Of a DNA stretch of 64,000 nt, positions 41,468-58,308 are shown in pieces. Source of the DNA: Mycobacteroides saopaulense (GTDB lineage Bacteria; Actinomycetota; Actinomycetes; Mycobacteriales; Mycobacteriaceae); NCBI RefSeq assembly GCF_001456355.1, contig NZ_CP010271.1, forward strand, positions 2,294,001 through 2,358,000, in the 5' to 3' direction. Both the position numbers and the translations under genes were made by a program. Positions within the stretch are counted from its first letter, which is position 1; every line of letters starts with the position of its first letter. Under the pieces are notes generated by a model. It saw only the letters and a list, made by a program, of their open reading frames with translations, had not been told where the DNA came from and searched no databases.

Positions 41468-42913
<1,446 letters not shown>

Positions 42914-43124
42914 GTGTGGGGTTGCTCCGGACAGGTTGTGTAGTAGGGACAGTGCTGGCACAGCTAGCTTCAGCTGCGGGCGTGCTTATACCTCCGCACG
43001 TGCGGCAGAGATGTGCTTCACCTTACTCGACTGGCCTCCACCAGCACAAACCTGGTCTCGTCGACAGGTGCCGGCGCCGGGCCGTCACCGCACCGGCACG
43101 GTGGCTCCCAGCTACTCTTCGGTG

Positions 43125-44285
43125 GTGTCCTACGCCTCTGCGCCCGCACCCATGCCGCCCATGCCGGGATTCTCCCAACGAGTCAAGAAGGTCGGGGCGC
43201 CGATCGGCGTCATCATCGCCCTGGCGCTGGTGACGGGATTAATCCTGGCCGGCCTGCTTCTCTCCAACCCGGTCGGCGCGATGATCGGATTGGTCCTGTC
43301 GAGCATCGCGATAGGGGTCGTCGTCCTCTGTTATCTCTGGCTGGACCGCTGGGAGCCGGAGCCCTCGCGGCTCCTTGTGCTGGCCTTTGTCTGGGGCGCG
43401 TCACTGGCCGTCGTTGTCTCGATCGTCCTCGAGCTGGCCTTCGGCTCAGTTTTCGATCCAGACGGCAGCACCAGCTTCGGGTCGATCGCCATCCGCGCAC
43501 CCTTCATCGAAGAGGCAGCCAAGGGCGCCTTTCTACTGTTGATGTTGACCGGCCGACGGCGCCAGGAAGTCAACTCGCTCACCGATTGCCTGGTGTACGC
43601 GGGCATCACTGCGGCCGGATTCGCCTGGCTCGAAGACATCGCCTACATCGGCAGTGGCAACACCGTGGGCGAGTCGGTGCTCACGGCGATCGTGCGTTTA
43701 GGCCTCGGTCCGTTCGCGCACTCGCTGTTCACCACGATGACCGGCATCGGCGTCTACTACGCCATGAAGCAGCACAACGCTGTCGCCAAGTTTCTCTGCA
43801 TCGCGATCGGCTACCTTGCCGCGGTGCTAATGCACGGCCTGTGGAACGGCTCATCCTTCTTGGGCCTTCAGGGATACCTCGCGGTGTACGTGCTGTGGAT
43901 GGTGCCCATGTTCGTGGTGGTGATCGTGGTCGGCGTGCGGAGCAGGCGCAAGGAACAGCACGTCGTCGCCGAGAAGTTGCCGGGGATGGTGGCAGCCGGG
44001 TTGGTCACCCCCAATGAGGCCACCTGGCTGGGTTCGATCAAGGATCGCAAGCACGCCATCGCGGAAGCCAAGCGAATCGGCGGTGCCCCCAGTGGCGTCG
44101 CGGTGAAGAACTTCGCCGCGCAGGTGGTAGAGCTTGCGTTCGTACGCGACCGAATCGAACGGGGCTCCCGCGATCCTCGGGACTTCGCGATGCAGACGGA
44201 GGAGGCGTACGCGGTCATGGCCGCTCGTGCCGCGGCGCCGGTCTTGCAAGCACTCTCGGGTTATCGTGCGCCCCTGACGGGGTAG
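43125..44285 (+). CDS. PrsW-family intramembrane metalloprotease
   Basis: This 386-residue protein has eight or so membrane segments and the PrsW motifs: APFIEEAAKGAF (EExxK), GFAWLEDIAY, GPFAHSLFTTMTG and VLMHGLWNGSS, in which the Glu and His residues form the presumed zinc site. PrsW cleaves an anti-sigma factor in Bacillus; the target here is unknown. The hydrophilic C-terminal ~130 residues are cytoplasmic. GTG 43125 is chosen because TACTCT ends 6 nt upstream; GTG 43101 would lie upstream of that element. Confidence 0.85.
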   Translation: MSYASAPAPMPPMPGFSQRVKKVGAPIGVIIALALVTGLILAGLLLSNPVGAMIGLVLSSIAIGVVVLCYLWLDRWEPEPSRLLVLAFVWGASLAVVVSIVLELAFGSVFDPDGSTSFGSIAIRAPFIEEAAKGAFLLLMLTGRRRQEVNSLTDCLVYAGITAAGFAWLEDIAYIGSGNTVGESVLTAIVRLGLGPFAHSLFTTMTGIGVYYAMKQHNAVAKFLCIAIGYLAAVLMHGLWNGSSFLGLQGYLAVYVLWMVPMFVVVIVVGVRSRRKEQHVVAEKLPGMVAAGLVTPNEATWLGSIKDRKHAIAEAKRIGGAPSGVAVKNFAAQVVELAFVRDRIERGSRDPRDFAMQTEEAYAVMAARAAAPVLQALSGYRAPLTG

Positions 44286-44314
44286 GTTGATGAATCAGAT
44301 GTTGTCTCATCAAC
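44286..44314. promoter_or_regulatory. Inverted repeat upstream of the FAD monooxygenase
   Basis: GTTGATGA and TCATCAAC form a perfect 8-bp inverted repeat separated by 13 nt. It lies 16 nt before the monooxygenase ATG and directly after the PrsW stop. It could be an operator or a leader hairpin. Confidence 0.45.
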
Positions 44315-44330
44315 GACGATCAGGAGCATC

Positions 44331-45812
44331 ATGTCGGACATGTCGAAAGACGAGCTCGTAGACGTCCTCATCGTGGGTGCGGGGATATCGGGCATCAACG
44401 CCGCCATCCGGTTGAGCGCGGCGGGCCGCAGCTTCCACATCGTCGAGCGCCGCGAGCGCATCGGCGGAACCTGGGACCTCTTCCGGTACCCGGGGATTCG
44501 CTCCGACAGCGACATCTACACGCTTAGCTTCGGCTACCACCCCTGGCATGAACGCAACACCATCGCCGACGGCGCCGATATCCGTGACTATCTGGAGCAC
44601 GCCGCCCGGGACTATGACGTCGACGGGCACATCAGCTTCTCGGCGAAGGTCACCGGCGCGGACTTCCGAACCGACACCGATACCTGGTCGGTTCGCGTCG
44701 AGACCCCGGCCGGCCCCACCACCTACCGCAGCCGGTTCCTGTACCTGTGCACCGGCTATTACAACTATGACGACGGCTACACCCCCGAGTTCCCGGGGGT
44801 CGAAAACTACACCGGGCGACTGATCCACCCCCAGCACTGGCCGGAAGACCTGGATTGCTCCGACAAGGAAGTGACGGTTATCGGCAGCGGCGCGACGGCC
44901 ATCACCTTGGTGCCCTCGTTGGCGCGCGCCGGGGCCAAGGTGAGCATGCTGCAGCGCTCACCGAGCTACATCTACCCGATCGCCCGTGTCGACTCGGTGG
45001 TGGACCTATTGCGAAAAATACTTCCGCTCAGTGCTGTTCAGCACTTCGCGCGTATCTGGCTGGGCGGTTTCAACTGGATCATGTACCAGGTGTGCCGCAA
45101 GGCGCCCGGCTTTGCCAAATGGTTCCTCAGGCGCCGGATCTCCAAGCTGCTGCCGGCGGACTATCCGGTCGACGTGCATTTCACCCCGCGCTACAACCCC
45201 TGGGATCAACGCGTGTGCGCCGACACCGACGGCGACCTCTTCGAGGCGATCAGCAACGGCGGCGTTCGGATGGTCACCGACACCATCGACTCATTCACCC
45301 CGTCCGGCATCAGACTGGGTTCCGGTGAGGAACTGCGCTCCGATGTGGTCATCACCGCAACGGGATTGAATCTGCAGATCTTCGGCGGCATCGAGCTGAG
45401 TGTAGACGGCTCCCCTGTCGATTCCCCAAATCGATTCATCTACAAGGGATACCTGATCGAGGGCGTGCCGAATGCGGCATGGAGCGTCGGGTACACCAAC
45501 GCGTCGTGGACGTTGCGCGCCGACCTGAGCGCGCGAGCCGTGGTGCGGCTTCTGGACTACATGGAGCAGTATGGATACACCCACGCGTATCCGGACCGGC
45601 ACGGACAAGAGCTCGAAGCGCGCCCGTTCTTCAATCTGTCGTCGGGATACGTGAGCCGTGGTGATGCGCATATGCCACGGTCCGGGACATCCGGGCCATG
45701 GGCCATCCGGCACAACTATCTACTGGATTTCGTTGCGTTCCATCGCGATCGGATTGACGAAAACATGCAGTTCGGTATCGCCAAGTCGAAGGCCGTGTCC
45801 TCGGCTGCGTGA
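44331..45812 (+). CDS. FAD-containing monooxygenase, Baeyer-Villiger/EthA-like
   Basis: This 493-residue flavoprotein has the FAD motif VGAGISGINAAIRL, the Baeyer-Villiger fingerprint as YTGRLIHPQHWP (Tyr instead of the usual Phe), and the NADPH motif IGSGATAITLVPSL. The order matches EthA-type enzymes that oxidise ketones or thioamides. A ribosome site AGGAGC lies before the ATG. No dedicated divergent regulator is present, unlike ethA-ethR, though an 8-bp inverted repeat sits just upstream. The substrate is unknown. Confidence 0.88.
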   Translation: MSDMSKDELVDVLIVGAGISGINAAIRLSAAGRSFHIVERRERIGGTWDLFRYPGIRSDSDIYTLSFGYHPWHERNTIADGADIRDYLEHAARDYDVDGHISFSAKVTGADFRTDTDTWSVRVETPAGPTTYRSRFLYLCTGYYNYDDGYTPEFPGVENYTGRLIHPQHWPEDLDCSDKEVTVIGSGATAITLVPSLARAGAKVSMLQRSPSYIYPIARVDSVVDLLRKILPLSAVQHFARIWLGGFNWIMYQVCRKAPGFAKWFLRRRISKLLPADYPVDVHFTPRYNPWDQRVCADTDGDLFEAISNGGVRMVTDTIDSFTPSGIRLGSGEELRSDVVITATGLNLQIFGGIELSVDGSPVDSPNRFIYKGYLIEGVPNAAWSVGYTNASWTLRADLSARAVVRLLDYMEQYGYTHAYPDRHGQELEARPFFNLSSGYVSRGDAHMPRSGTSGPWAIRHNYLLDFVAFHRDRIDENMQFGIAKSKAVSSAA

Positions 45813-45854
45813 CGCTGGTGCGATTCCGCGTCGGCAGGCGGAAAGGTGCACAAC

Positions 45855-46213
45855 GTGACGGACCTACGCATCGGCGCGATCGTTGTTCGCGTCGATGACC
45901 TGCAGCGCCAGATGGCTTTCTGGTCGGCGGCTTTGGACTATGTGTGCCGCGAGAGACTCCCACCGCGGCCTGGGTTGTGCTGACTCCGCGGGTGGGCTCG
46001 GGGCCCAATCTCTCATTGGACAAACACCGTTCGGTTCCGCAGTTGCCGCCGCGCATTCATCTTGATCTCTACACGAGCGATCAGCCGCGGGAGATTGAGC
46101 GGCTCATCGGGCTCGGTGCGATGCCAGTGGACTGGCCGCGTCCGACAGGGGCCGACTTTGTCACGCTTGAAGATCCTGAGGGGAACCGATTCGACGTCGT
46201 GCAGTTCCCTTAG
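45855..46213 (+). pseudogene. VOC/glyoxalase-family gene with a frameshift
   Basis: The GTG-started frame reads VTDLRIGAIVVRVDDLQRQM...FWSAALDYV, a normal VOC N terminus, then reaches a stop after LPPRPGLC. A second frame from 45944 continues it: PRETPTAAWVVLTP, then HLDLYTSDQPREIERL and DFVTLEDPEGNRFDVVQFP, the usual C-terminal half with the metal Glu/Asp strand. Removing one TG from TATGTGTGCC (45939-45948) restores one open frame of about 118 residues. It is therefore probably a recent slippage mutation, or a sequencing error. Confidence 0.8.
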
Positions 46214-46493
46214 ATCGCTTGTGCCACTGTGGTTTCTGGTGCAACAAACGCGGCCGTTCTGTCGGTGGGCGCCGTTAGCTAGCAGCCTGATGGGATGTGT
46301 TGGTGCGTGGTGCAAGCATGTATGTTCCGTTGGAAATTCCAGGTCATGTTTGATGCGGCACGCGTTGCTTGGGTGGTTGAGTTCCTGACCGGTACCATTC
46401 CGGCCGGGTTCTCCTTCTGCGGCGGCGAGTGCGTGATGCTGTACTTGCAACGCGGACAAGGGACGAACGTGGGGCGTTGGCACTGCGGCTCGT

Positions 46494-46922
46494 TTACCTA
46501 TCAGGATCTTGAGTCCATACGCAATCACCTTTGAACTGCACCGTGCCGCCTGGCGTGGTGAAGTCCAGATGCACGAGATCGGGCCATTGGCTTCGCCCCG
46601 ACTTAAAGGACTCGCCGGTCGGTAGATAGATTATGTATTCGCAGCTGCCACGGTTGTTTGGTGTGCCGGTCCAGGAGCCGCCGGCGATTTCGCCGCCGTA
46701 GTTTTCGTGCGGTAGGCGCAGTGTTCGGTCGCCTTGCACTCTGGTCAACGGCTCGTCCGAACCGGGGGTGGTTTCGTGTACGACTGTCTGCGAGATTGTC
46801 GTGCCCTGGTTCTGAATTTCAGGAGCATCCGATTTGGAGGTGCAGGCCGTCAAGAGCAATACGCCTATGACTGGCAGCGCCACGAGGATCGCGCGGTCGA
46901 TATTGACGAGTGTTTTTGTCAC
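46494..46922 (-). CDS. Small lipoprotein coupled to peptidase-like wall protein
   Basis: This 142-residue protein has a signal peptide with lipobox LLTAC, a Thr/Ser-rich linker, and a beta-rich C-terminal part with two Cys (GSCEYIIYLP and GDCVWTQ) that may pair. The GTG start overlaps the upstream TGA (GTGA), so translation is coupled to the peptidase-like protein. The longer in-frame reading lies inside that gene and is rejected. I do not recognise the domain; the coupling suggests a surface partner of the hydrolase. Confidence 0.72.
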   Translation of the reverse strand: MTKTLVNIDRAILVALPVIGVLLLTACTSKSDAPEIQNQGTTISQTVVHETTPGSDEPLTRVQGDRTLRLPHENYGGEIAGGSWTGTPNNRGSCEYIIYLPTGESFKSGRSQWPDLVHLDFTTPGGTVQFKGDCVWTQDPDR

Positions 46923-48295
46923 GGCTTGTACTCCGGTTGTAGTGGGCGGTGTTCTGGTTCCCCGGGGACTAGGGAATTCACATGCACGTGGTCCATATGG
47001 TTGGCGGTGACACCGCCGCGGTTTGGCATCGGTGTCCACCCTTGGCCAGGTTCCCAGATTTGCTGGTTCCAAATTATCCATTGGATATGAAAGCAGGCGC
47101 TGTTTTCAGCGAGGTAGGCCACGATCTTGTCGCCAAGAGCTTGGCCAGTAGTAGTTGACTCACCAAGTATGTCGGTCATGATGTCCGTTGCATGGCCGTC
47201 GTAATGCTCCGTGAACTGCACTTCGCCATTGGCATCCCGATCAGGTGGCCTCCAACCACCGATTTCCTTCACATCTGGGAACTCCTTGGCGACGCTGCGC
47301 GCAATGTTCACCGCGCCCGGCATCAGCCCCTTTTCGCTTCCTTTGCTCAGTTCTGCGAGGCTGGGTAACTGGACCGTCCCATCCGGCCCGGACTGCCGAC
47401 ATTTTTCCTCAGTTTTGGTTGGTGTCGGCGTTTCTGTTGGTGTCGGCGTCTGTGTTGGTGTCATCTGCTTGGGATCTGGTTGAGCCGTGCCGGTGACTGT
47501 TTTGCACGCTAGGCTTCCGATGACCGGCCAGTCGCAGATCCCTTCTTTTGACTGTGGCATTTTCTGGTTGGGCGCGCAGGAGCATTCGAAGGCGGGCTGC
47601 CAGCCGCGATCGGGCTTCTTGAACACACTGCCTGCCCCACCCACACCGGATTTTATGAGGCTGACGAACTCCTGCAGGATCCCGTAATCCTCTGCCTGCT
47701 GCTCGCACTGCTGCTGGCGCTGCTGATCTTGCTGATCATTCTGGTCGGGCTGCTGAGTCTGCGACGGCGCCTGGCTCGGCTGCTGATTCTGCGTACCCTG
47801 TTGAGGCTGGCTTTGGTTGCCTTGTTGGGGCTGTTGGTAATCGGGGTTGGATTGACCGGGCCCTTGGGTATACCCCGGCGCGGTGGAGTAGTTGGGGGGC
47901 TGACTGCCGTGCGCGGGCTGATCCCAGCCTTGCTGAGGCTGTTGCCCACCTTGCTGGCCGGGGGCTTGTTGCGGCGCACCCTGGGTGCCAGTGTTGTAAA
48001 TCGATGCCGAGCCGTCCTGATTCAGCGGCGGCTGGTTACCGCCCTGATAGTCCGGGAGCTGCCCAGGCATTGAAGGCGGGACGAATTGCCCGCCATTCAT
48101 ACCGCCATCTCCACCAGGACCTCCCGTGGGGCCCGTCGGATCCGCCGCACCTGTCGCGATCGTAGAGAAGCCGCTACCAGGGGTGGTGTAGTCGCTGTTC
48201 ACCTTGACCCCGGCAACAAGCGTCGCCGCCACTGCCGCCACGGCCAGCGCCCTGCGCAGACCGGGCGAAATACGCCGAGGATCCTTCATGATCAT
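46919..48295 (-). CDS. Exported modular protein A: shared linker module plus D,D-peptidase-like domain
   Basis: This 458-residue protein has an N-terminal membrane/signal segment (RALAVAAVAATLVAGV). A Gly/Pro/Gln-rich linker (~50-200) and a Cys-rich module (~200-285; CSCAPNQK, CDWPVIGSLACK) follow, then a Thr/Pro spacer and a C-terminal domain (~300-458). The last resembles VanY/ARB-07466-like peptidases: GGWRPPD, EHYDGHATDIM and MDHVHVN supply His/Asp ligands. The linker and module are identical at DNA level to protein B. GGAGG precedes the start. It probably acts on peptidoglycan outside the membrane. Confidence 0.75.
   Translation of the reverse strand: MIMKDPRRISPGLRRALAVAAVAATLVAGVKVNSDYTTPGSGFSTIATGAADPTGPTGGPGGDGGMNGGQFVPPSMPGQLPDYQGGNQPPLNQDGSASIYNTGTQGAPQQAPGQQGGQQPQQGWDQPAHGSQPPNYSTAPGYTQGPGQSNPDYQQPQQGNQSQPQQGTQNQQPSQAPSQTQQPDQNDQQDQQRQQQCEQQAEDYGILQEFVSLIKSGVGGAGSVFKKPDRGWQPAFECSCAPNQKMPQSKEGICDWPVIGSLACKTVTGTAQPDPKQMTPTQTPTPTETPTPTKTEEKCRQSGPDGTVQLPSLAELSKGSEKGLMPGAVNIARSVAKEFPDVKEIGGWRPPDRDANGEVQFTEHYDGHATDIMTDILGESTTTGQALGDKIVAYLAENSACFHIQWIIWNQQIWEPGQGWTPMPNRGGVTANHMDHVHVNSLVPGEPEHRPLQPEYKP
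47427..48145. repeat. 719-bp direct repeat, copy 1
   Basis: This segment is identical, without any gap, to 51505-52223 by line-by-line reading. It covers the linker and Cys-rich module of protein A. Identity ends abruptly at both sides, inside both genes, which indicates recent gene conversion or unequal exchange. Confidence 0.95.
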
Positions 48296-48744
48296 CCGAT
48301 GAGCCCCTCCGAGTGAACCTCACAGTTTCCTGTGAGTAGCCGCTATGGCACCCTCTCACACTGAAAAGGCGATTGTCTACAGAAAGAAAGTTTGCTGGCG
48401 TGTTTTCGCAGGTTACTTGCCGCTGACGTTAAACCAATCGCAGATCAAACCGGCAGCAATCTCTCATGATCAGCGCAGGGAGCCGCCTGCGTGGTGACCA
48501 TGGTTGTAACCCGGCGGGCGGCGCTCATCCGTTTAGCGGAGGTTGTCAGTACGGGGGCAAACACTCGGCCGCCTCACGGCTTATAACCGTCGATGGCTGC
48601 TTTGATGGAAAATATGGCGAATGTAGAGCCACCTACGCCACGAGGTGCGGCTAAGCGCTAATGCCACATAGAGGGCAGATCCTGGGTGCTCAGACTGCAG
48701 CCAGAAGGGCGGACGCGACGAGCCGGCGTCTGGGAGCCGTCATG
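48296..48744. other. Intergenic region upstream of protein A
   Basis: No convincing gene is seen. A dyad CTCACAG-TTTC-CTGTGAG lies at 48319-48336, in the presumed leader or promoter of protein A. Short open readings elsewhere lack ribosome sites and look spurious. It may contain decayed mobile-element sequence. Confidence 0.5.
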
Positions 48745-49029
48745 TCAAGCAAGACCTCGATATTGGCTGGTGTGGCCCAACTCCTTGGCGGCTTGAGTCA
48801 CGATCCACCACCGATCCAACGCGACGGCCAGCTCAGCATCACACCACCGCTGCGGTGTGCGACGTGCGCTCGGCTTCAGCACACCTTCGCCGTACGCGAT
48901 ACGAGCCTGCTCGACCGCCGAGATCGACCGCCCCAACTGTCCGGCGACCCGGCATGCGGTTAGCGACCGATCCCGTAACACCGCAAGGTCGTCCTCCGAA
49001 CATCGCCGCATCCCACGCCGTCCAGCCAC
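48745..49029 (-). CDS. Small protein with tandem Myb/SANT-like HTH repeats, probably truncated
   Basis: From a GTG at 49029 the 94-residue reading has two similar units: RRGMRRCSEDDLAVLRDRSL followed by ACRVAGQLGRSISAVEQAR, and RWCDAELAVALDRWWIVTQAAKELGHTS. These match the spacing of Myb/SANT-like DNA-binding repeats often found in actinophage proteins. The second repeat is cut off after GHTS, so a frameshift or truncation is likely. The start is uncertain. It may be a remnant of a mobile element. Confidence 0.4.
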   Translation of the reverse strand: MAGRRGMRRCSEDDLAVLRDRSLTACRVAGQLGRSISAVEQARIAYGEGVLKPSARRTPQRWCDAELAVALDRWWIVTQAAKELGHTSQYRGLA

Positions 49030-49045
49030 AAGGCCAAAAGCTTGT

Positions 49046-49642
49046 TTAGGGTTGACGCTGCGTACACACCGTGAAACGGCGTTGCGGGTGGGCGTACCCG
49101 CCATTCGGGCAGGCGTCGACCACAGTGGTGTTAACAACTACCTTGATCGGCTTGTACTTCTCACGCGCGCTGGGATCGTCACAGGAGACCTTCGTGACAG
49201 GGCGGCCCAGGTTTAGGCATGCGCCCTTGTCCCATGCAAGGTCAAGGCAGGCGGTGTACTGCCCGGATTCCTTCGAGTTGCGGTAATAGGAGTGATCGGC
49301 GTCTCCGCACTCACGGGATCTGTTCACACGCTGCACGATGCGGTACGTGTACTGCTGCGACCCGCAATCAACGATCGTCAGAACTGCATTGACAGCAGGC
49401 CCAGACAGATTCACACACCCACCCACCGGAGCCTCTCGCTCACCATTAGCTGTCAACGAAGCAGGCGACGGAAACTGCCCCGGAATGCTGGAGAAGTCCG
49501 TCGAATCCTGCTGAGCGGACGCCGTCGCAGGAACCGTCGCTGACGGTGGAGAAGACTGCATTCCGCACGCCCCAAGCGTGAACGGCACCATGAATCCAGG
49601 CAGCAGCAACCTAACCAGAGACACAGTCAAAGTTGGAGTCAT
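49046..49642 (-). CDS. LppU-like lipoprotein
   Basis: This 198-residue protein has a signal peptide with lipobox TLGAC, then a Ser/Pro linker. A Cys-rich domain follows with VGGCVNLSG, VDCGSQQYTYRIV, RECGDADHSYY, YTACLDLAWDKGACLNLG and RRFTVCTQ. This Cys pattern is that of mycobacterial LppU. The function of LppU is unknown. ATG 49642 is preceded by AAGGTGAG. It lies 53 bp downstream of the next lipoprotein gene and may share its transcript. Confidence 0.78.
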   Translation of the reverse strand: MTPTLTVSLVRLLLPGFMVPFTLGACGMQSSPPSATVPATASAQQDSTDFSSIPGQFPSPASLTANGEREAPVGGCVNLSGPAVNAVLTIVDCGSQQYTYRIVQRVNRSRECGDADHSYYRNSKESGQYTACLDLAWDKGACLNLGRPVTKVSCDDPSAREKYKPIKVVVNTTVVDACPNGGYAHPQRRFTVCTQRQP

Positions 49643-49695
49643 CCGCAAACCGCTCACCTTTCTACTTGGGGTTATCCGAACCGAATTCCGGGAGA

Positions 49696-50757
49696 TCATT
49701 TTCCAGTGAATTTTTTGATACCCGCCGCGACCACTTGCTTGTTCACGTCGCAGTACCCCCCACGAACTTCCAGGGTTGGAACCATCGTGTTCTCGTCACC
49801 CCGGTTGCTCTGGCCTATTTTTACGGGTGGCAATGGATTTCCTGCCATGGCAAATGCAGTGCAACTTTCGGGCCCGTCTAGGCCTATGTAGACGGTGACA
49901 CCATCTACATCTTCCTTGTGCTGAGCGCTATCGAAAAGAGCACGAGCAACAGGACTAAAGGTAAGGCCAGCTTTGGCCTTCAAACCTGATCCTGAAAAAA
50001 TACACCTGAAGTACGCGGCTCCGTCCACAAGATACCCGGAAAATCCTTGCAGTTCCGGATACAGGGCGCATGGGTCATTCTCCAGTAACGGGACCGGTAT
50101 TGGGCCGTCTGCACTGCGCAACGGAAGGCCGCGGTCGAGAATTCTTAAGGCTCCTGTTGCGACTGCTTTCACTTGATCGCAATTGACAACATTGGATCTT
50201 TCACCTGGTGGCTCATTGGGCGGCTGACCGGATACCGTTAGCGGGAAGTATCTGTCGAGCATGTCTGCGACTTCCGGGTTCTTCGGTGCTCCTGGCACAG
50301 CTGCCAGGTGTAGCGACGCTCGATACATGCAGGCGGTCGTCTCGGATTCTTCCACCGCCATACCGCCTAGAGAGGTCTTATGTGTTGTGCCTATATTTCC
50401 GCGGTCGCGCAAGGATATCGTTACCGTTGGGACAGTCTTATCTCCGCCTTTGTCCGCATACAGCGTACATCCGGCGAAACCTTGGGAATACTGGTATTGA
50501 GCCCCCGGAATATCCTTGGCTACTTCTGGGTCGATGAACCCGCATGGATCTACTTTTCTCATTGCCTGCGCAATAGCCAGTTGATCCCTTTCGGTCTGCG
50601 TTAGTTTCTGGCCATATGCATTGACGGGAGAAGCGAATAGAGATTGGGGGTCGAAATAAGGCCCGGGAATGGACGGCGCCTGGGGCACAGGGGTCCCGCA
50701 TGAGGAAATCGAACACGTCAGAAGGATAGGTAGAAGTCGTAGTCGTCTAAGTCTCAT
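49696..50757 (-). CDS. Lipoprotein with two DUF3558-like repeats
   Basis: This 353-residue protein has a signal peptide with lipobox SISSC. The mature part shows two similar halves, each beginning with a DPC motif (KVDPCGFIDPEVAKDI and NDPCALYPELQGF), then an F..C segment (FAGCTLYAD and YFRCIFSG). That pattern fits the DUF3558 family of actinobacterial lipoproteins, here duplicated. Base composition is AT-richer than in the flanking core genes. It follows protein B by 50 bp and is probably in its operon. Confidence 0.72.
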   Translation of the reverse strand: MRLRRLRLLPILLTCSISSCGTPVPQAPSIPGPYFDPQSLFASPVNAYGQKLTQTERDQLAIAQAMRKVDPCGFIDPEVAKDIPGAQYQYSQGFAGCTLYADKGGDKTVPTVTISLRDRGNIGTTHKTSLGGMAVEESETTACMYRASLHLAAVPGAPKNPEVADMLDRYFPLTVSGQPPNEPPGERSNVVNCDQVKAVATGALRILDRGLPLRSADGPIPVPLLENDPCALYPELQGFSGYLVDGAAYFRCIFSGSGLKAKAGLTFSPVARALFDSAQHKEDVDGVTVYIGLDGPESCTAFAMAGNPLPPVKIGQSNRGDENTMVPTLEVRGGYCDVNKQVVAAGIKKFTGK

Positions 50758-50807
50758 GCCAGCCCCCAGAAGGTCGTGAGTAATTGGTAAGAATCAAGAA
50801 TATGGTA

Positions 50808-52379
50808 TCAACAATTTTTGAGGAGATCATAAAGCTCGGATCCGCCCTTCTCCCAGGGGCCATAGTTGTGAAGCCCAGGGTCGGGCTGTCCCGACGGTGT
50901 TCGATTTAATGCCCCATAGGTTGCATCGTCAGGATCGCCAGGACCAGAGTTTTGGACTTGCTGAGCAATCGTGTGCATATCCCATTTAGGATCACCGTAG
51001 TCTAAACTTTGGCCAGGGAAGTTATCTCCAGTGGAGCCGATTCTATTTGCCTCGACCATCCCCGGATTACTCCCTCCTTCGGGGTGCTGGTAGCCGAGGA
51101 AGAATCGTTTCATAGTCTCCTGCACGCTCATCATATTGCTCACGTCGTCGCCCCATATTCCGACCTGTTGCTGAACAATTCCAATGGAATTGTGATCAGA
51201 TCCGACGTTGGCCCCTACTTGCTCATCCCAGTGTGGCGCGGTCGGGTCTTTATCGGCGGAAGCGAGACTTTCTGGAAACTTGCTACTACCCACATTAACC
51301 AAGTTGCTCTCAGCCAAGGCCGTAACCAAGCCTATGGTTATTCCGCGACCCTGTCGGCTATCAGCAGGCAAGAATTGCCTACCTGCATTGATAATCGCTT
51401 GGGCGTTATTCCGTTGGGTTGCTACCAGCGTGTAGGGATTGCCACCGCTATCGGTTATGGTCACGGGGCCAGGAGGTGGACAGTCCTTCTGCTCTGGCTG
51501 CTTTGGCGTTTCTGTTGGTGTCGGCGTCTGTGTTGGTGTCATCTGCTTGGGATCTGGTTGAGCCGTGCCGGTGACTGTTTTGCACGCTAGGCTTCCGATG
51601 ACCGGCCAGTCGCAGATCCCTTCTTTTGACTGTGGCATTTTCTGGTTGGGCGCGCAGGAGCATTCGAAGGCGGGCTGCCAGCCGCGATCGGGCTTCTTGA
51701 ACACACTGCCTGCCCCACCCACACCGGATTTTATGAGGCTGACGAACTCCTGCAGGATCCCGTAATCCTCTGCCTGCTGCTCGCACTGCTGCTGGCGCTG
51801 CTGATCTTGCTGATCATTCTGGTCGGGCTGCTGAGTCTGCGACGGCGCCTGGCTCGGCTGCTGATTCTGCGTACCCTGTTGAGGCTGGCTTTGGTTGCCT
51901 TGTTGGGGCTGTTGGTAATCGGGGTTGGATTGACCGGGCCCTTGGGTATACCCCGGCGCGGTGGAGTAGTTGGGGGGCTGACTGCCGTGCGCGGGCTGAT
52001 CCCAGCCTTGCTGAGGCTGTTGCCCACCTTGCTGGCCGGGGGCTTGTTGCGGCGCACCCTGGGTGCCAGTGTTGTAAATCGATGCCGAGCCGTCCTGATT
52101 CAGCGGCGGCTGGTTACCGCCCTGATAGTCCGGGAGCTGCCCAGGCATTGAAGGCGGGACGAATTGCCCGCCATTCATACCGCCATCTCCACCAGGACCT
52201 CCCGTGGGGCCCGTCGGATCCGCGGTTGCGCCAGGGACTAGGCCGATGGCCCCGATGCCCGAGTCGGTCGAGGTGTGTAGGTGCCAGCCCGCTACCGCGA
52301 CCGCAGTAATAGCCGTGACCGCAAGTGCGCGCCGCACGCCGACGGGTATCCGGGTTTTCGGTGACTTCATCGGTGTCAT
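50808..52379 (-). CDS. Exported modular protein B: shared linker module plus transglycosylase-like domain
   Basis: This 523-residue protein has an N-terminal membrane/signal segment (RRALAVTAITAVAVAGW), the linker and Cys-rich module identical to protein A, and a Thr/Pro spacer. A C-terminal domain (~310-523) resembles actinobacterial lysozyme/lytic-transglycosylase folds: ITIGLVTALAESNL supplies the likely catalytic Glu, and SIGIVQQQVGIWGDD matches the SxGxFQQR-type motif. It should cut glycan strands. The start overlaps the upstream gene by ATGA. The N-terminal ~50 residues differ from protein A. Confidence 0.78.
   Translation of the reverse strand: MTPMKSPKTRIPVGVRRALAVTAITAVAVAGWHLHTSTDSGIGAIGLVPGATADPTGPTGGPGGDGGMNGGQFVPPSMPGQLPDYQGGNQPPLNQDGSASIYNTGTQGAPQQAPGQQGGQQPQQGWDQPAHGSQPPNYSTAPGYTQGPGQSNPDYQQPQQGNQSQPQQGTQNQQPSQAPSQTQQPDQNDQQDQQRQQQCEQQAEDYGILQEFVSLIKSGVGGAGSVFKKPDRGWQPAFECSCAPNQKMPQSKEGICDWPVIGSLACKTVTGTAQPDPKQMTPTQTPTPTETPKQPEQKDCPPPGPVTITDSGGNPYTLVATQRNNAQAIINAGRQFLPADSRQGRGITIGLVTALAESNLVNVGSSKFPESLASADKDPTAPHWDEQVGANVGSDHNSIGIVQQQVGIWGDDVSNMMSVQETMKRFFLGYQHPEGGSNPGMVEANRIGSTGDNFPGQSLDYGDPKWDMHTIAQQVQNSGPGDPDDATYGALNRTPSGQPDPGLHNYGPWEKGGSELYDLLKNC
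51505..52223. repeat. 719-bp direct repeat, copy 2
   Basis: This is the second copy of the segment at 47427-48145, in the same orientation and at a constant offset of 4078 bp. It lies in the middle of protein B. Recombination between the copies would delete both lipoprotein genes and create an A/B hybrid. Confidence 0.95.
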
Positions 52380-52801
52380 CGATGGGCCTTTTCTTGTGAG
52401 GACAAACTTGATTCAGCGTCAGGTGCGGCAGTAGCGGTTGTTGTTGCTCGGCGGCCGGGAGGTGTCCGCGGCCGCGGCGACGGGTTGGCAAAGCGGGACG
52501 CCCCGCCAATGTTCTGCACGCGGGGCATGTCATCGGGTTGGGGAACCGCATAAGGAATCGGCTTCGGAGGCGGAGCCCCGGGACCGCTCGGGTCGGCATA
52601 CACGCGAGAGGCGTTGTCGATCATGATCGCCGAAGTAATAACCAGCACAGACAGCACCAGTGCAATCCAAGCCCGATTATGCCGGTGAAATTCCACGCCA
52701 TCATGTGTGCTGGATGCGGCACGCGCTGAGAGAAGGCGGCTAGTCATGATCCGCACCATGCCCCTCGCACTCCCCACTGTCGACCGGGCCCATTTCTTCA
52801 C
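52376..52801 (-). CDS. Membrane protein with Pro-rich exported tail
   Basis: This 141-residue protein has a basic N terminus, one hydrophobic helix (AWIALVLSVLVITSAIMI), then VYADPSGPGAPPPKP and a Pro/Ala/Thr-rich tail. The ADPSGPG stretch after the helix recalls the ADPTGPTGGPGG that opens the shared module of proteins A and B. Its stop overlaps the start of protein B (ATGA), making it the first gene of that operon. The GTG start is uncertain; in-frame ATGs at 52759 and 52747 are possible. No known domain is recognised. Confidence 0.65.
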   Translation of the reverse strand: MKKWARSTVGSARGMVRIMTSRLLSARAASSTHDGVEFHRHNRAWIALVLSVLVITSAIMIDNASRVYADPSGPGAPPPKPIPYAVPQPDDMPRVQNIGGASRFANPSPRPRTPPGRRATTTATAAPDAESSLSSQEKAHR

Positions 52802-53249
52802 GCCGAGCCGCTGGAGAAAACTCGTTACGGACGAAATGAGCAGTTAAATCGAACACTAGAGCTAGTCAGCTAACTTGTCAATCATCGACAGCGTGCGGCA
52901 TTCGATCGCCCCCTGCGCGTCGGCGGCGCGATCGAGCTTCGTTGTCCCTACGCGTTCCCGGGGCATGTGTCTACAGGCTCTTGGGTTCGCCGTAGATGGT
53001 TTGGGTGTCGTTGCCGTTCTCGGTGCGGATCCGGAACGTGGCGAAGGATTGAATCTTCACCTGACCGCCGCAGCCGTCGGCTTCGACGTTCAAACCCCAG
53101 ATACGGCATCGAAAACCCTGCTAGGACAATGGGTGTGCGAGCAAGCAGTCCAGGCGCTACAGCCGCAGTAGGCAATGCGGGCACCTGCACACCAATTAGG
53201 ACGATCCTGGCAAACTTTGTGATCTTTCAGGCCGTACGCTAGTTCGGCT
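52802..53249. other. Region between the island operon and the tetR remnant
   Basis: No gene is supported here. Short readings on both strands overlap one another and lack ribosome sites. The left part must hold the promoter of the operon led by the 52376-52801 gene. Confidence 0.5.
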
Positions 53250-53511
53250 ATGACCATTACCGAAGAGCCTGCCACCAGCAGGGCCACTGCCGGCGTCCGT
53301 CGCCCCCAGGTTCTCAATGCCGCTATCGCGCAACTTGCGCTACATGGTGAGCGGGGGTTGATCCACCACTGGCGCCGCCGCTAACTACTACAGAACCCGC
53401 GAAGCACTGGCGGTGGGTGTGTTCACAGAAGTGCAGAAGCGGCGGCGGGCAGCCTGGGGAGGGCTACCGACCAACGCTCGATGCCGCCCACCACAAGTGG
53501 TCCGGGCGTAG
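53250..53511 (+). pseudogene. Degraded TetR-family regulator
   Basis: The ATG frame gives RRPQVLNAAIAQLALHGERGLIHH, the first TetR helices, then runs into a stop at 53382. A second frame resumes with TGAAANYYRTREALAVGVF, the recognition-helix end and YYxTREAL motif of TetR proteins, and stops at 53509. Part of the HTH between the two is missing and the whole ligand-binding domain is gone. It was probably the regulator of the adjacent FAD monooxygenase gene. Confidence 0.75.
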
Positions 53512-53520
53512 CGTCCGGGC

Positions 53521-54723
53521 ATGACGCACGTTCTGCAGACGCAAGTATGTGTCGCCGGTGGAGGGCCCGCGGGTCTGGTGCACGCTCTGCTGCTGGCCAG
53601 GGCCGGGATCAACGTTGTCGTCCTGGAAAAGCACGCCGACTTCTTGCGTGACTTTCGTGGGGACACAGTGCATCCCACCACCATGCGGATCATGGACGAC
53701 ATCGGGTTCATCGACGATTTCCTTCGACTACCCCACCAGAAGGTCGACCACATCGCCTTCGACGGCGACGGCCAGATGCGTACATTCGGTGACTTTCGCG
53801 CGCTCAAATGGCTGGGATACCACCAGCCGTACATCGCCTTCATGCCGCAGTGGGATTTCCTCGACTTTCTTGCCGAACAGGCCGAGAAATACCCGGAATT
53901 CACCCTCATCCGCCGCGCGGCGGTAACCGATTTGATCATGGAGGGTGATCGGGTGGCCGGGGTACGGACACCCGAACTGGAAGTGCGGGCAGACCTGGTG
54001 GTAGCGGCGGACGGACGCACTTCCGCAGTGCGGGCCGCTTCAGGACTTGAAACGGCACATGAAAGCTCGCCGATGGATGTCCTCTGGTTCCGGCTGAATC
54101 GCCGGCCCGGAGATCCCGAGGAGACGTTTGCGGTGCTGCGCAGAGGACTGCTGCTGGCGATGATTCATCGCGGTGACTACTGGCAGGTGGCCCACCTCAT
54201 GCCGAAGGGAGCCGGACCGCAGAACGGCTCCCTGGATGCGTTCAAGAAGCGCCTGGTCACGGCGCGTCCTCAGCTGCGCGAGCATGTGAACGATCTGCGC
54301 TCCTGGGATGACACCAGCCACCTGGATGTCCGCGTCGATCGTCTCAAAACCTGGTGGCGGCCCGGACTGCTGTGCATCGGCGATGCTGCACACGCCATGT
54401 CACCCGCGGGCGGAGTCGGTATCAACTTGGCCGTCGCCGACGCGGTGGCAGCCGCGAACACCCTCGTGGAACCGCTGCGCGCGGGTCACGTCGCCGACAC
54501 CGACCTCGCCGCGGTGCAGCGCCGACGCGAACTGCCGACCAGAGTGGTACAGGCGTTCCAAGTATTCGTGCAAGACAACCTGATCAAACCTGTCCTCACC
54601 GGCGACCTGTCCCCCATCACATTGCCGTTTTTCGTCGGCCGAGGACCGCTCAAGTTCCTCCCTCCGATCGCCGTCGGCAGGGGGCTGCGTCCAGAGCGTG
54701 TGCACACACCGGACGTGCACTAG
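53521..54723 (+). CDS. FAD-dependent aromatic-type monooxygenase
   Basis: This 400-residue protein belongs to the PHBH-fold flavoprotein monooxygenases. It has the ADP-binding VCVAGGGPAGLVHALLLARAG, the DG motif (LVVAADGRTSAVR) and the GD motif (LLCIGDAAHAMSPAGGVGINLAVADA). Substrates of such enzymes range from phenols to tetracyclines and rifamycins; none is predictable here. The ATG lies 6 nt after TAGCGT, so it is likely leaderless. A broken tetR gene lies directly upstream, so control may have been lost. Confidence 0.88.
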   Translation: MTHVLQTQVCVAGGGPAGLVHALLLARAGINVVVLEKHADFLRDFRGDTVHPTTMRIMDDIGFIDDFLRLPHQKVDHIAFDGDGQMRTFGDFRALKWLGYHQPYIAFMPQWDFLDFLAEQAEKYPEFTLIRRAAVTDLIMEGDRVAGVRTPELEVRADLVVAADGRTSAVRAASGLETAHESSPMDVLWFRLNRRPGDPEETFAVLRRGLLLAMIHRGDYWQVAHLMPKGAGPQNGSLDAFKKRLVTARPQLREHVNDLRSWDDTSHLDVRVDRLKTWWRPGLLCIGDAAHAMSPAGGVGINLAVADAVAAANTLVEPLRAGHVADTDLAAVQRRRELPTRVVQAFQVFVQDNLIKPVLTGDLSPITLPFFVGRGPLKFLPPIAVGRGLRPERVHTPDVH

Positions 54724-54732
54724 CGCCGCCGC

Positions 54733-57441
54733 TCAGTGCGCCGCGGCGTCCCAGCTGCGCCCATACCCGACGGAAACCTCGAGTGGCACATCGAGCGGAT
54801 ACGCCGAGCCCATGGTCTCGCGTACCAATGCCTCCAGGCTTTCCCGTTCGCCCTCGGCCACTTCGAAGAGGAGCTCATCGTGTACCTGTAAGAGCATGCG
54901 AGACCGTAAGCCCTTGTCGCGCAGGGCCTTGTCGGTGGTGATCATCGCGACCTTGATGATGTCGGCGGCGCTCCCCTGGATGGGCGCGTTGAGGGCCGCA
55001 CGTTCGGCGGCCTCGCGGCGCAGACGATCACCGCTGTCCAAGTCGGGCAGGTAGCGGCGCCGGCCGAGCACCGTCGAGGTGTACCCGTCCTTGCGTGCCT
55101 GATCCACCACGGCGTGCAGGTACTCGCGAACACCGCCGAACCGCGAGAAGTACTGATCCATCTGCTCTTTGGCCTCGTCGTTGGAGATCTTGAGCTGGGT
55201 GGCCAGACCGTATGCGGACAGACCGTAGGCCAGACCGTAGGACATCGCCTTGACCCGTCGACGCAGCTCGGCGGTGACCTCGTCGATCGGAACGCCGAAG
55301 GCCCGGGCGGCCACGAATGAGTGCAGATCCTCGCCGGTGTTGAACGCCTCGATGAGTCCCTCGTCGGCTGACAGGTGGGCCATGATGCGCATTTCGATCT
55401 GGCTGTAGTCGACCGTCATCAGCTCGGAGAAGCCCTGGCCCACCACGAAGCCGTCGCGGATTTCCCGGCCGGCCTCGGTACGCACCGGAATGTTCTGCAG
55501 GTTTGGCTCGGTGGACGACAGCCGACCCGTGGCCGCAATGGTCTGATTGAAGGTGGTGTGGATGCGGCCATCAGCGGCAACGGATTTCAGTAGCCCGTCG
55601 ACGGTGACTTTCAATCTGGTGACATCGCGGTGGGTGAGCAGATGCTCGAGGAAGGGATGACCGGTCTTGTCGAACAGCGTCTGCAGGGCGTCCGCGTCGG
55701 TCGTGTAGCCGGTCTTGGTCTTCTTGGTCTTGGGCATGCCGAGTTCGTCGAACAGCACGACCTGAAGCTGTTTGGGCGAACCCAGGTTGATCTGCTTACC
55801 GATCACGGCGTATGCGGCGTCGGCGGCTTCCCGGATACCGGTGGCGAACTGATTCTGCAGCGATGTCAGATGATCGCTGTCGATCGCGATGCCCACGGAT
55901 TCCAGTCCCGCCAGTACGCGCTGCACCGGTAGCTCCATCTCGGCGAGCAGGGTGGCCGATTCGATGCGTTCCAGTTCGATGTCGAGCGCGTCGGCCAGGT
56001 CGATGATGGCGCGGGCGCGCAGCATCTGAGCTTGTGCGGCCTTGGCATCGCCGGCTCCGTCCTCGTCCAGCAACGAAAGCTGTTGCTCCCCATCGTCTTC
56101 TGCGCGGAGCTCGCGGCGTAGATATCGCAACGAGAGGTCATCGAGCGCGAAACTGCGTTGCCCGGGGCGCACCAGATAGGCGGCCAGCGCAGTATCGGAG
56201 GTGACCCCGTCGAGCTGCCACCCCCGTCCGGCCAGCGCATGCATGGCCTGCTTGGCCTCGTGCAGGGCCTTGGGGCGTGCCGGGTCGGCGAGCCAGTCGG
56301 CCAGGGCTGTCTCGTCCTCCGGGGTGACTGTTGTGGTGTCGATGTACGCGCCATCCCCATCGGCGGACGCGATCGCGATGGCCGTGGCATCGCCGTCGTA
56401 CGGCGTGTAGGTCCCGACCACCGCGAGACCGCTACGGCGGCCGTCTGCGGCATGCGTGCTCAGCCAATCGGCAACCGTGCCGGGTTCCAATGCCTGACCG
56501 GCGAGTTGGAATCCCTCGTCGACCTCGGGTTCGACGGCCTCGAGGGTTTCGAACAGCCGGTCGCGCAACACCCGGAATTCCAGGTCGTCGAAGAGACGGT
56601 GAATCTGGTCGCGATCCCAGGGGGCAAGGGCCAGCTGAGCCGGTACATACGGAAGCGGCACCGTGCGCACCAGATCGGTGAGCTCGCGGTTGAGGATCAC
56701 CGAGCCGAGGTTGGCGCGAAGCGAGTCACCCACCTTGCCGCGCACGGTGTCGGCCTTGTCGACCAGCTCCTGCAGTGACCCGTATTCGAGGATCCACTTC
56801 GACGCGGTTTTCTCGCCGACTCCGGGGATGCCGGGCAGGTTGTCGCTCGGGTCGCCACGCAGCGCCGCGAAATCCGGGTACTGAGTGGGTGTGAGTCCGT
56901 ACTTCTCGACCACGGCTTCCGGGGTGAATCGGGTGAGGTCGCTGACGCCCTTGCGCGGATAGAGCACCGTCACGTCCTCGTTGACGAGCTGTAGTGAGTC
57001 GCGGTCACCGGTGACCACAAAGACCTTGAAGCCCTCGGCCTGTCCCTGCGTGGCCAGGGTGGCGATGATGTCGTCGGCCTCGAACCCCTCCTCGGCGAGC
57101 ACGGTGATGCCGAGGGCCTGGAGCACTTCCTTGGTGATGTCGATCTGTCCGCGGAACTCGTCGGGAGTGGCCGACCGGGTGGCCTTGTACTCGGGATACC
57201 GCTCGGAGCGGAATGTCTTGCGCGATACGTCGAAGGCAGCGGCCACGTGCGTGGGCGCCTCATCGCGCAGCAGGTTGATCAACATGGAGGTGAACCCGTA
57301 CACCGCATTGGTGGTCAGGCCGGACTGGGTCTTGAAGTTCTCGGCGGGAAGCGCATAGAACGCCCGGAACGCCAGCGAGTTGCCGTCGAGCAGCAGCAGG
57401 GTCGGCTGTTTGGTACCGGTCTTGGTCGCAGGCGCAGTCAC
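54733..57441 (-). CDS. polA: DNA polymerase I
   Basis: This 902-residue protein has the 5'-nuclease domain (~1-300; LLLDGNSLAFRAFYAL, GIPGVGEKTASKW), a degenerate 3'-5' exonuclease domain lacking the catalytic acidic residues, as in other mycobacteria, and the polymerase domain. Motif A is DYSQIEMRIMAHLS, motif B RRVKAMSYGLAYG, and motif C LQVHDELLFEV. The GTG start is preceded by TAGGGT ending 6 nt upstream, so it should be leaderless. In M. tuberculosis polA adjoins rpsA; here ~12 kb separate them. Confidence 0.97.
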   Translation of the reverse strand: MTAPATKTGTKQPTLLLLDGNSLAFRAFYALPAENFKTQSGLTTNAVYGFTSMLINLLRDEAPTHVAAAFDVSRKTFRSERYPEYKATRSATPDEFRGQIDITKEVLQALGITVLAEEGFEADDIIATLATQGQAEGFKVFVVTGDRDSLQLVNEDVTVLYPRKGVSDLTRFTPEAVVEKYGLTPTQYPDFAALRGDPSDNLPGIPGVGEKTASKWILEYGSLQELVDKADTVRGKVGDSLRANLGSVILNRELTDLVRTVPLPYVPAQLALAPWDRDQIHRLFDDLEFRVLRDRLFETLEAVEPEVDEGFQLAGQALEPGTVADWLSTHAADGRRSGLAVVGTYTPYDGDATAIAIASADGDGAYIDTTTVTPEDETALADWLADPARPKALHEAKQAMHALAGRGWQLDGVTSDTALAAYLVRPGQRSFALDDLSLRYLRRELRAEDDGEQQLSLLDEDGAGDAKAAQAQMLRARAIIDLADALDIELERIESATLLAEMELPVQRVLAGLESVGIAIDSDHLTSLQNQFATGIREAADAAYAVIGKQINLGSPKQLQVVLFDELGMPKTKKTKTGYTTDADALQTLFDKTGHPFLEHLLTHRDVTRLKVTVDGLLKSVAADGRIHTTFNQTIAATGRLSSTEPNLQNIPVRTEAGREIRDGFVVGQGFSELMTVDYSQIEMRIMAHLSADEGLIEAFNTGEDLHSFVAARAFGVPIDEVTAELRRRVKAMSYGLAYGLSAYGLATQLKISNDEAKEQMDQYFSRFGGVREYLHAVVDQARKDGYTSTVLGRRRYLPDLDSGDRLRREAAERAALNAPIQGSAADIIKVAMITTDKALRDKGLRSRMLLQVHDELLFEVAEGERESLEALVRETMGSAYPLDVPLEVSVGYGRSWDAAAH

Positions 57442-57473
57442 ACACCTACCCTAGGCAACGGGTGCGACAGCAC

Positions 57474-57872
57474 CTACGACCCCGGCGCCTCCTCCGATCC
57501 GTACGGCCTGGTGATGATTTCCAGGTAGTGCCCCGACGGGTCCTGGAAATACACGCCGCGGCCGCCGTCGTGATGATTGATCTCGCCGGGGTGCTGGGCC
57601 CGCGGGTCTGCCCAATGTTCGATGCCTCGGTCGGTGATCCGGCCGTAGATCGCGTCGAAGTCGTCCTCTCCGACCAAGAAGGCGTAGTGCTGTGGGGTGA
57701 TTGTCGCGGCGTCTACGGTCGCGAAATCCAAGTTTGCGCCGTACTGCAGCGTGACGTTGAGGAACGGGCCGAATTCTTGTGCGGCCGGTAACCCGAAGAG
57801 CTCGACAAAGAAGCGTGCGGACTCATCGCGGTCACGGGAATGAACGATGGTGTGGTTGAACGCGATACCCAT
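57474..57872 (-). CDS. VOC-family protein (glyoxalase/dioxygenase fold)
   Basis: This 132-residue protein has the paired beta-alpha-beta-beta-beta units of VOC proteins: FNHTIVHSRDRDESARFFVELFGL and, near the end, GGRGVYFQDPSGHYLEIITRPYG with a metal Glu. A His in the first strand (NHTIVH) is the likely partner ligand. ATG 57872 is chosen because the longer reading lies inside the upstream hxlR-like gene. It starts 10 bp after that gene and is probably cotranscribed. Confidence 0.85.
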   Translation of the reverse strand: MGIAFNHTIVHSRDRDESARFFVELFGLPAAQEFGPFLNVTLQYGANLDFATVDAATITPQHYAFLVGEDDFDAIYGRITDRGIEHWADPRAQHPGEINHHDGGRGVYFQDPSGHYLEIITRPYGSEEAPGS

Positions 57873-57882
57873 GAAGCCCTCG

Positions 57883-58308
57883 CTACTTCGCCACCAGTGC
57901 GTTGTCAAGGGCGGAGTCGAACGCGTTTCTGTGACTGCGGATCTCCTCATGGTGTGTCCGCGCCCAGCGCACCAGCGCGGCGGAGATGCCATGCAGATCG
58001 ACGCCCAATGGTGTGAGCGCGTACTCCACGCGCGGTGGCACTTCGGCGAACGCGGTGCGCGTGATCAGTCCGTCGCGGCGCAACAACGTCAGGGTGCGCG
58101 TCAACATGCGCTGCGAGATGCTCGGCACCGCATCGCGAAGCTCCGTGTACCGGCGGGGTCCATCGTGCAGCGTCGCGATGAGCAGCACGCTCCATTTGTC
58201 ACCGACACGGTCCAAAACCTCGCGGATGAACTCGCCCTCGGCCAACCCCACGCCGGCACAGATTCGGGGCAACGCGGGATCTGCCACCCCTGCCTGCGAT
58301 TCGGTCAT
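57883..58308 (-). CDS. HxlR-family transcriptional regulator
   Basis: This 141-residue regulator has the HxlR winged helix: VLDRVGDKWSVLLIATLHDGPRRYTELRDAV, then ISQRMLTRTLTLLRRDGLITR. Cys26-like residues for redox sensing (ICAGVG) lie before the HTH, as in QorR/HypR-type members, though sensing is inference. It is divergent from an SDR gene, the probable target. ATG 58308 is the natural start (MTESQAG). Confidence 0.88.
   Translation of the reverse strand: MTESQAGVADPALPRICAGVGLAEGEFIREVLDRVGDKWSVLLIATLHDGPRRYTELRDAVPSISQRMLTRTLTLLRRDGLITRTAFAEVPPRVEYALTPLGVDLHGISAALVRWARTHHEEIRSHRNAFDSALDNALVAK

Follow-up and report, generated by a model that had tools for sequence, protein, structure and literature searches.

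Two modular exported proteins of Mycobacteroides saopaulense as probable members of a polymorphic toxin-immunity family in mycobacteria

In this study, we examined a window of 64,000 nucleotides from the genome of Mycobacteroides saopaulense (contig NZ_CP010271.1, positions 2,294,001 to 2,358,000), in which a cassette on the minus strand encodes two proteins, here named A and B, together with lipoproteins (Table 1). An initial annotation had described the cassette as paired cell wall hydrolases, and both open reading frames (ORFs) were found at the positions it gave. The exported, modular nature of the proteins, their predicted wall-cutting domains and the dedicated lipoproteins encoded downstream of each were supported as well. 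The linker and Cys-rich segment that A and B were said to share proved even more alike than claimed, as comparison within the window revealed a direct repeat of 719 bp with 0 mismatches. It begins within both genes past the diverged signal region and stops just short of the diverged C termini, so that the two genes differ at their 5' and 3' ends. No Pfam family was found for A or B at an E value of ≤1, and 0 of 7 proteins matched known anti-phage defence proteins in PADLOC at E ≤ 0.01.

Table 1. Features of the cassette (window positions) and module-bearing genes of the same genome
Feature	Position	Strand	Remarks
Putative toxin gene A	46919-48295	minus	membrane/export segment, Pro/Gln-rich linker, Cys-rich segment, C-terminal PF26571-class peptidase-like domain
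Putative toxin gene B	50808-52379	minus	export module as in A; C-terminal GH184-like muramidase domain
Direct repeat, copy 1 (in A)	47427-48145	minus	export module, linker, Cys-rich segment
Direct repeat, copy 2 (in B)	51505-52223	minus	perfect, 719 bp
Helix-Cys segment of A	47552-47716	minus	residues 194-248
Helix-Cys segment of B	51630-51794	minus	residues 196-250
C-terminal domain of A	46958-47401	minus	residues 299-446; HxxGxAxDxM and DHVH invariant in 8 aligned sequences; PDB 9flh, E 3e-13
C-terminal domain of B	50811-51482	minus	residues 300-523; ALAESN (catalytic Glu position) and GSDHNS
Lipoprotein gene coupled to A	46494-46922	minus	GTGA overlap; probable immunity protein of A; relative after paralogous same-domain toxin, 40% identity, E 5e-32
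Lipoprotein gene after B	49696-50757	minus	probable immunity protein of B; relative behind B-like toxin in L047, 25% over 339 aa, E 3e-29
Second lipoprotein gene after B	49046-49699	minus	generic family component, also behind unrelated toxin domains
Truncated partner gene	52376-52801	minus	N-terminal part retained, internal deletion; ATGA overlap with B
A, B	window		module genes of this genome
L023			Amidase_2 copy
L025			GH19-like copy, below cut-off
L026			second copy with A's domain
L027			module gene without assigned domain
L028			GmrSD_C-like, just below cut-off
L024, L029			polytopic long forms
L030			toxin stub

The perfect repeat is most simply explained as a recent gene-conversion tract. 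An origin as an assembly artefact is unlikely, because the genome is a single contig, the two copies differ in their flanks, and a near-identical B including its linker (P0001) sits on other contigs, the longest of 830,273 bases. A second mosaic pair was found in the same genome, in which the genes of loci L025 and L027 share 840 bp at 98.3% identity and are diverged beyond that. Two mosaic pairs in one genome are compatible with C-terminal exchange, the exchange event itself not having been observed.

The C-terminal domain of A is predicted to be of the peptidase-like PF26571 class. Searched against PDB sequences, it matched the PF26571-like entry 9flh ("LysM domain-containing protein") over residues 19 to 142 of the fragment used, and a profile including its relatives matched the same entry at E 3.9e-35; no paper carrying this code was found in the open-licence literature. 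H66, D73 and the DHVH motif are kept in all eight aligned sequences, and the resulting HxxxxxxD/HxH pattern is what we take to be that of LAS-type zinc peptidases. A had no match to PF26571 in the local Pfam copy; its 57%-identical relative P0014, the putative toxin of L026, has a precomputed PF26571 assignment, yet was unmatched in that copy too.

B had been annotated as carrying a transglycosylase-like domain, whereas its closest sequence and profile matches in the PDB are GH184 muramidases. As a single sequence the domain matched 8b2h (E 0.00098) and 8b2e (E 0.11), and a profile of B and its relatives matched both more strongly (1.4e-9 and 1.6e-11, respectively). In the report on KsGH184, Glu41 is given as catalytic, along with Asp66 (PMC10394673); in alignments read by eye, these residues align with the ESN and SDHNS motifs of B. 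The muramidases treated there are fungal, some with an SH3-like binding domain, whereas B is a bacterial exported protein. A homologue search with B's C terminus returned the near-identical copy only. The matches to both GH184 entries, with Glu in the catalytic position and a conserved Asp, indicate that B ends in a GH184-like muramidase domain with the catalytic Glu kept.

Polymorphic toxin systems combine a conserved N-terminal trafficking part with a variable C-terminal toxin and an immunity gene downstream. We collected 99 ORFs with the N-terminal module of A and B from 96 loci (L numbers), of which 73 remained once ORFs shorter than 200 residues and ORFs whose last 250 residues were identical had been dropped; 53 are short forms and 20 long forms. 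The module consists of a hydrophobic segment, an A-x-A/DP site and a linker rich in Pro and Gln in which PDYQ-like motifs recur. The portion found widely in the family comprises the N-terminal ~160 residues, and all invariant columns of 27 aligned proteins fall within residues 1 to 159 of B (motifs QF-P, P-Y-GGN, SIY and TQGPG-NP). Over the first 185 residues, nonsynonymous divergence (dN, 0.17 to 0.36) lies well under synonymous divergence (dS, 0.93 to saturated) in 8 of 8 pairs, and the module is therefore under purifying selection. The Cys-rich segment pointed out in the initial annotation is not the common denominator but an optional part, found in 14 of the 53 short forms and in 0 of the 20 long forms; among the 73 proteins, the CDWP stretch is confined to A, B and the two amidase-type copies.

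When the genome of M. saopaulense (one contig, 4,649,175 bases) was searched with A, 14 matches were obtained, and the ORFs of ten stretches plus the window gave ten module-bearing genes, including one stub (Table 1). The polytopic long forms (L024:3039-6410, 1,123 aa, and L029:3934-6966, 1,010 aa) carry the same linker behind several membrane segments and are 63% identical over 783 residues; neither has a Pfam or NCBIfam match above the cut-off. Elsewhere, a second module-bearing copy in the genome of L143 (L143:5300-5763) is split into two short ORFs of 74 and 80 residues.

Fusions of the module to other C-terminal domains were found in two sets of proteins. In the protein database, where 8,000 candidates were scored and 120 of 156 homologues were listed, 19 of the 120 carry a precomputed Pfam domain, of ten kinds (PF01510, PF00182, PF26571, PF15533, PF09056, PF22322, PF06259, PF00413, PF10783 and PF16313); all names shown for these 120 are Mycobacteroides, Mycobacterium or Mycobacterium phage. 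In addition, 30 further C-terminal stretches were scanned against Pfam, and 16 gave a match above the cut-off. The families matched are Tox-REase-5, Tox-REase-7, Endonuclea_NS_2 (twice), GH-E, ADPrib_exo_Tox, Gln_amidase, Abhydrolase_8, Amidase_6, GH19, SLT, PLA2 (phospholipase A2), DUF2599, DUF6973 (twice) and Peptidase_M66. The family thus joins one conserved N terminus to unrelated C-terminal domains, among them amidase, GH19, phospholipase A2, alpha/beta-hydrolase, nuclease, deaminase and ADP-ribosyltransferase domains. Wall-cutting domains are frequent in the genome of M. saopaulense (Amidase_2, GH19-like below cut-off, two of PF26571 class and GH184-like).

To relate the C termini to the genes behind them, we took every same-strand ORF starting near the stop codon of a module gene. 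The 3' end is complete in 71 of the 73 genes, and a candidate downstream ORF was present for 66 of the 71, giving 2,145 pairs of loci. Both the C terminus and the downstream ORF were related in 23 pairs, the C terminus only in 9 and the downstream ORF only in 20. In 2,000 shuffles, the number of C-terminus-related pairs with a related downstream gene averaged 0.65 and reached at most 6, compared with the 23 of 32 observed; the downstream gene hence covaries with the C-terminal domain. A is not part of this count, since the longest ORF behind it has a start lying too far upstream. Direct comparison of its lipoprotein with that of L026 adds one pair to the 23, and this lipoprotein is absent from all other of the 96 loci. 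For B, the counterpart is L047, with C termini 29% identical and a lipoprotein family common to both.

Recognised toxin and immunity families occur side by side in the family. Among ten downstream proteins scanned against Pfam, Imm52 after Tox-REase-5 and a YezG-like protein after one Endonuclea_NS_2 domain were above the cut-off, while Imm35 after Gln_amidase and SUKH after the other Endonuclea_NS_2 domain were below it; the remaining six gave one weak HEAT match and five no match. A further ten, mostly exported, scanned later, gave 0 matches above the cut-off. The long forms with an assigned domain also show a match of compartments: in 6 of 6 cases nuclease or deaminase toxins are followed by a protein without a strong hydrophobic N terminus, and in 4 of 4 cases wall-cutting toxins are followed by one with it, although the hydrophobicity threshold was chosen with the data already in view, two of the six fall close to it, and the domain of L029 is below the Pfam cut-off. 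Since the downstream gene changes with the toxin domain and immunity families are present, the lipoproteins of A and B are probably immunity proteins; neither matched an immunity family in Pfam. A prophage copy of the module (prophiGD12-2) is annotated as "meltallopeptidase," followed by an overlapping "meltalloproteinase inhibitor" [sic]. In three loci (L127:6881-7906, L143:10250-11284 and L119:4095-5060), downstream proteins of 322 to 345 residues have membrane segments apparently fused to a domain like that of the generic lipoprotein, which suggests that this domain works with the immunity protein.

The translational coupling of A to its lipoprotein gene was borne out, the latter starting with GTG at position 46922. 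B had been described as coupled to a membrane protein; the overlap exists, but the upstream ORF is what a large deletion in its interior has left of a partner gene. It keeps positions 9 to 75 of the partner model, and the partner's final residues persist in another frame. The partner gene of L030 is a similar case, and the locus as a whole (L030:4904-7449) is degenerate, comprising an MspA-family porin, the truncated partner, a toxin stub without C-terminal domain and a generic lipoprotein-like ORF. The two ORFs downstream of B do have lipobox-like starts, but their labels as DUF3558-like and LppU-like found no support in Pfam. The first gave 0 hits in Pfam and NCBIfam, and the second gave 0 hits in Pfam, the only collection scanned for it. 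A 130-residue ORF between the two toxin units (48745-49137) has no Pfam match and by eye resembles a truncated mobile-element DNA-binding protein.

In complete loci, a gene for an MspA-family porin and one for a secreted partner lie just upstream of the module gene on the same strand. Totalled over loci of the abscessus-chelonae group and distant loci, the 53 short forms have the porin gene upstream in 19 cases, the partner in 21 (including truncated remnants, that of the window being counted twice, once for A and once for B) and the generic lipoprotein gene downstream in 31; for the 20 long forms, the numbers are 1, 2 and 0. On the opposite strand, porin and partner were found at L073, L128 and L129 and the porin at L053. 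The porin of L026 matches PF09203 (E 6.3e-36) and is the only one of the five proteins of this operon with a Pfam match. No porin hit was obtained in the cassette of the window. The partner has no Pfam or NCBIfam family and no credible relative in the PDB (one match, E 0.6); a by-eye impression that its Cys-rich end resembles phospholipase A2 is not claimed as a finding.

In contact-dependent inhibition and two-partner secretion, an exported toxin with a variable C terminus has an outer-membrane pore gene nearby, and orphan modules occur elsewhere. The pore of the present family is of the MspA type (PF09203) rather than Omp85. Pfam revealed nothing like an Omp85-type transporter among the five L026 operon proteins or six proteins of the window, and neither a filamentous TpsA domain nor a TpsA-like secretion domain in A or B at E ≤ 1. 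We tentatively consider it possible, though not probable, that porin, partner and PDYQ-linker module form a dedicated route for export and delivery of interchangeable antibacterial toxins across the mycomembrane, independent of type VII secretion and a counterpart of two-partner secretion.

The family is centred on the abscessus-chelonae group, with some other mycobacteria. In a survey of 396 genomes of the GTDB genus Mycobacterium, with four candidates scored per genome and copy numbers thus lower bounds, the module was found in 21 genomes, that of the window included, and the partner in 24. Every one of the 21 module-bearing genomes is among these 24, and the other three, G164, G310 and (weakly) G254, have the partner but gave no module hit. 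Within the order, the partner was found in 4 of 298, namely the window's own genome, one other Mycobacterium and two weak matches elsewhere. The survey of the genus superseded an earlier search with B alone, whose 3 of 61 genomes (the own one included) were too few to describe a distribution. When genome contigs were scanned with two peptide patterns, 48 loci were obtained, every one in a record titled Mycobacteroides or Mycobacterium sp. D16Q13, D16Q14 or D16R12. G111, the genome of L119, also has high-scoring module copies like those of the abscessus-chelonae group.

That the cassette is accessory, as first proposed, was borne out by comparing positions 43001 to 58000 with the corresponding stretches of seven relatives (L172, L173, L174, L175, L177, L178 and L179; L176 was left out): none of the seven has a DNA match between 46242 and 53479. 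The flanking genes lie ~520 to 550 bases apart in L172 and L173, and the gap holds other ORFs in L174 and L175. L177, a close relative with flanks 94 to 95% identical, and L179 are without the cassette and much of the right-hand gene, and L178 has the left flank alone. The module was also found in 21 phage records, each a Mycobacterium phage by name; 20 of the 21 were listed, and these are prophage entries in which it is annotated as hypothetical protein, membrane protein or metallopeptidase. Viral contigs gave 25 module loci. The partner was not found in phage records, and the plasmid collection gave 0 matches for the N-terminal 160 residues of the module or for the partner. At the edge of the cassette, positions 45944 to 46213 hold a glyoxalase-like gene fragment (PF18029), with a similar stretch near the site in L174 and L178. 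The conserved flank includes a gene for a PrsW-family intramembrane protease (42750-44285, E 7e-43). PrsW is listed with some polymorphic toxins in the survey by Zhang et al. (PMC3482391); the gene here is not part of the inserted cassette and probably has nothing to do with the toxins.

Taken together, we consider A and B to be paralogous polymorphic toxins of an antibacterial toxin-immunity family, with a probability of roughly 0.8. The family as such is well supported by the sequence comparisons, from which we infer toxicity, immunity and delivery. The module would carry the C-terminal enzyme across the inner membrane, and A would cut peptide stems and B glycan strands in the wall of a neighbouring cell, while the producer and its sister cells would be protected by the lipoprotein encoded directly downstream of each toxin. 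The second lipoprotein after B would be a generic accessory. Porin and partner may aid crossing of the mycomembrane; the locus in the window lacks the porin gene and has only part of the partner, and would therefore depend on copies elsewhere in the genome. New C termini would be acquired through recombination in the shared module. Several observations weigh against this interpretation. In nine of the 32 pairs with related C termini, no relationship was seen between the downstream genes, although two of the nine rest on matches of 27 and 37 residues that may be spurious. Near-identical loci (C termini >90% identical) make up five of the 23 pairs related in both parts, and without them the count is 18 of 27 diverged pairs. 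The 20 pairs with a common downstream family behind unrelated C termini include 14 that arise through the generic lipoprotein family, among six loci in which it is the next ORF. The pairing of A rests on two loci (A and L026), as does that of B (B and L047), and a lipoprotein behind a wall enzyme could instead be an activator or anchor. Ten of the 20 long forms did not enter the tally of compartments; two of them are cut by contig ends, and the other eight have no assigned domain, four being unscanned. Of the 30 C-terminal stretches scanned, three matched only below the cut-off (L039, L041 and L071) and 11 had no Pfam match at E 0.01 (L034, L035, L036, L038, L040, L066, L125, L074, L123, L072 and L024). 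Finally, a long stretch separates the hydrophobic segment from the A-x-A site, and the module may or may not be cleaved.

Alternatively, A and B could be housekeeping or remodelling wall hydrolases, with lipoproteins as activators or anchors and the module as a surface-display signal for many secreted enzymes. The Sec-type start, the Pro/Gln linker and the wall-cutting domains would fit this, L031 of the same genome is a stand-alone secreted protein with an A-like domain, and other actinobacteria have PF26571 fused to M23, Rpf and LysM domains. However, toxin domains of nuclease, deaminase and ADP-ribosyltransferase type sit on the same module, in some cases accompanied by known immunity families, and its distribution is patchy, with the cassette absent from the site in relatives, so that we regard this explanation as improbable. 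We see little likelihood, too, that the proteins are effectors directed against eukaryotic hosts such as amoebae, from which the downstream proteins shield the producer. C termini resembling phospholipase A2, matrixin (below the cut-off in our own scans) and ADP-ribosyltransferase are what could be expected of such effectors, but the peptidoglycan-cutting domains so frequent in this genome have no peptidoglycan target in animal cells, and the long-form nuclease toxins are paired with downstream proteins that lack a signal.

The initial annotation had suggested that A and B open the wall together, for secretion, conjugation or interbacterial attack, and that the Cys-rich module brings both to one partner. 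The two genes are adjacent and their predicted cut sites complementary, but each toxin has its own covarying downstream gene, and related toxins occur singly elsewhere. Given the variety of unrelated toxin domains on the module and the way in which the downstream gene changes with them, A and B most likely work singly, each with an immunity protein of its own; neither joint opening nor recruitment to a common partner was supported, and we judge the former very unlikely. Nothing was found that points to secretion or conjugation, and no conjugation or type VII genes were seen by eye among the ORFs listed for 42 to 58 kb. From the roles proposed, interbacterial attack is the one that the comparisons support.

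The nearest described class is that of the WXG-100 polymorphic toxins (PMC8092301 and PMC9434293). Polymorphic toxin-immunity cassettes of this class occur in M. abscessus prophages (Dedrick et al. 2021, PMC8092301) and are alike in host group, modular toxins and cognate immunity; in prophiGD12-2, a WXG polymorphic toxin (gp86) even occurs together with a copy of the present module (gp80). In that report, however, all such cassettes carry an N-terminal WXG-100 motif for type VII export, whereas A and B matched no WXG-100 domain in Pfam at E ≤ 1 and have a hydrophobic export segment instead. The module family is separate from these toxins. With the polymorphic toxin systems surveyed by Zhang et al. 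(2012, PMC3482391), it has SUKH and the pairing of Tox-REase-5 with Imm52 in common, the latter being listed there. The first 300,000 of the 357,715 characters of that survey contain neither "MspA" nor "proline-rich," and a like N terminus may appear under another name. Likewise, the main text of an M. abscessus secretome paper (PMC10892769) contains no "MspA," "amidase" or "toxin." In titles and abstract openings of the open-licence literature, preprints not covered, we found no description of the module family; it may be described elsewhere.

If this interpretation holds, the family would account for some of the "hypothetical" secreted proteins and lipoproteins in the accessory genomes of these species and provide candidate toxin-immunity pairs directed at the mycobacterial wall. 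It also offers a testable idea on how proteins might cross the mycomembrane, which is a long-standing question. The family often adjoins an outer-membrane pore gene and, if true, would represent a new kind of weapon system in mycobacteria.

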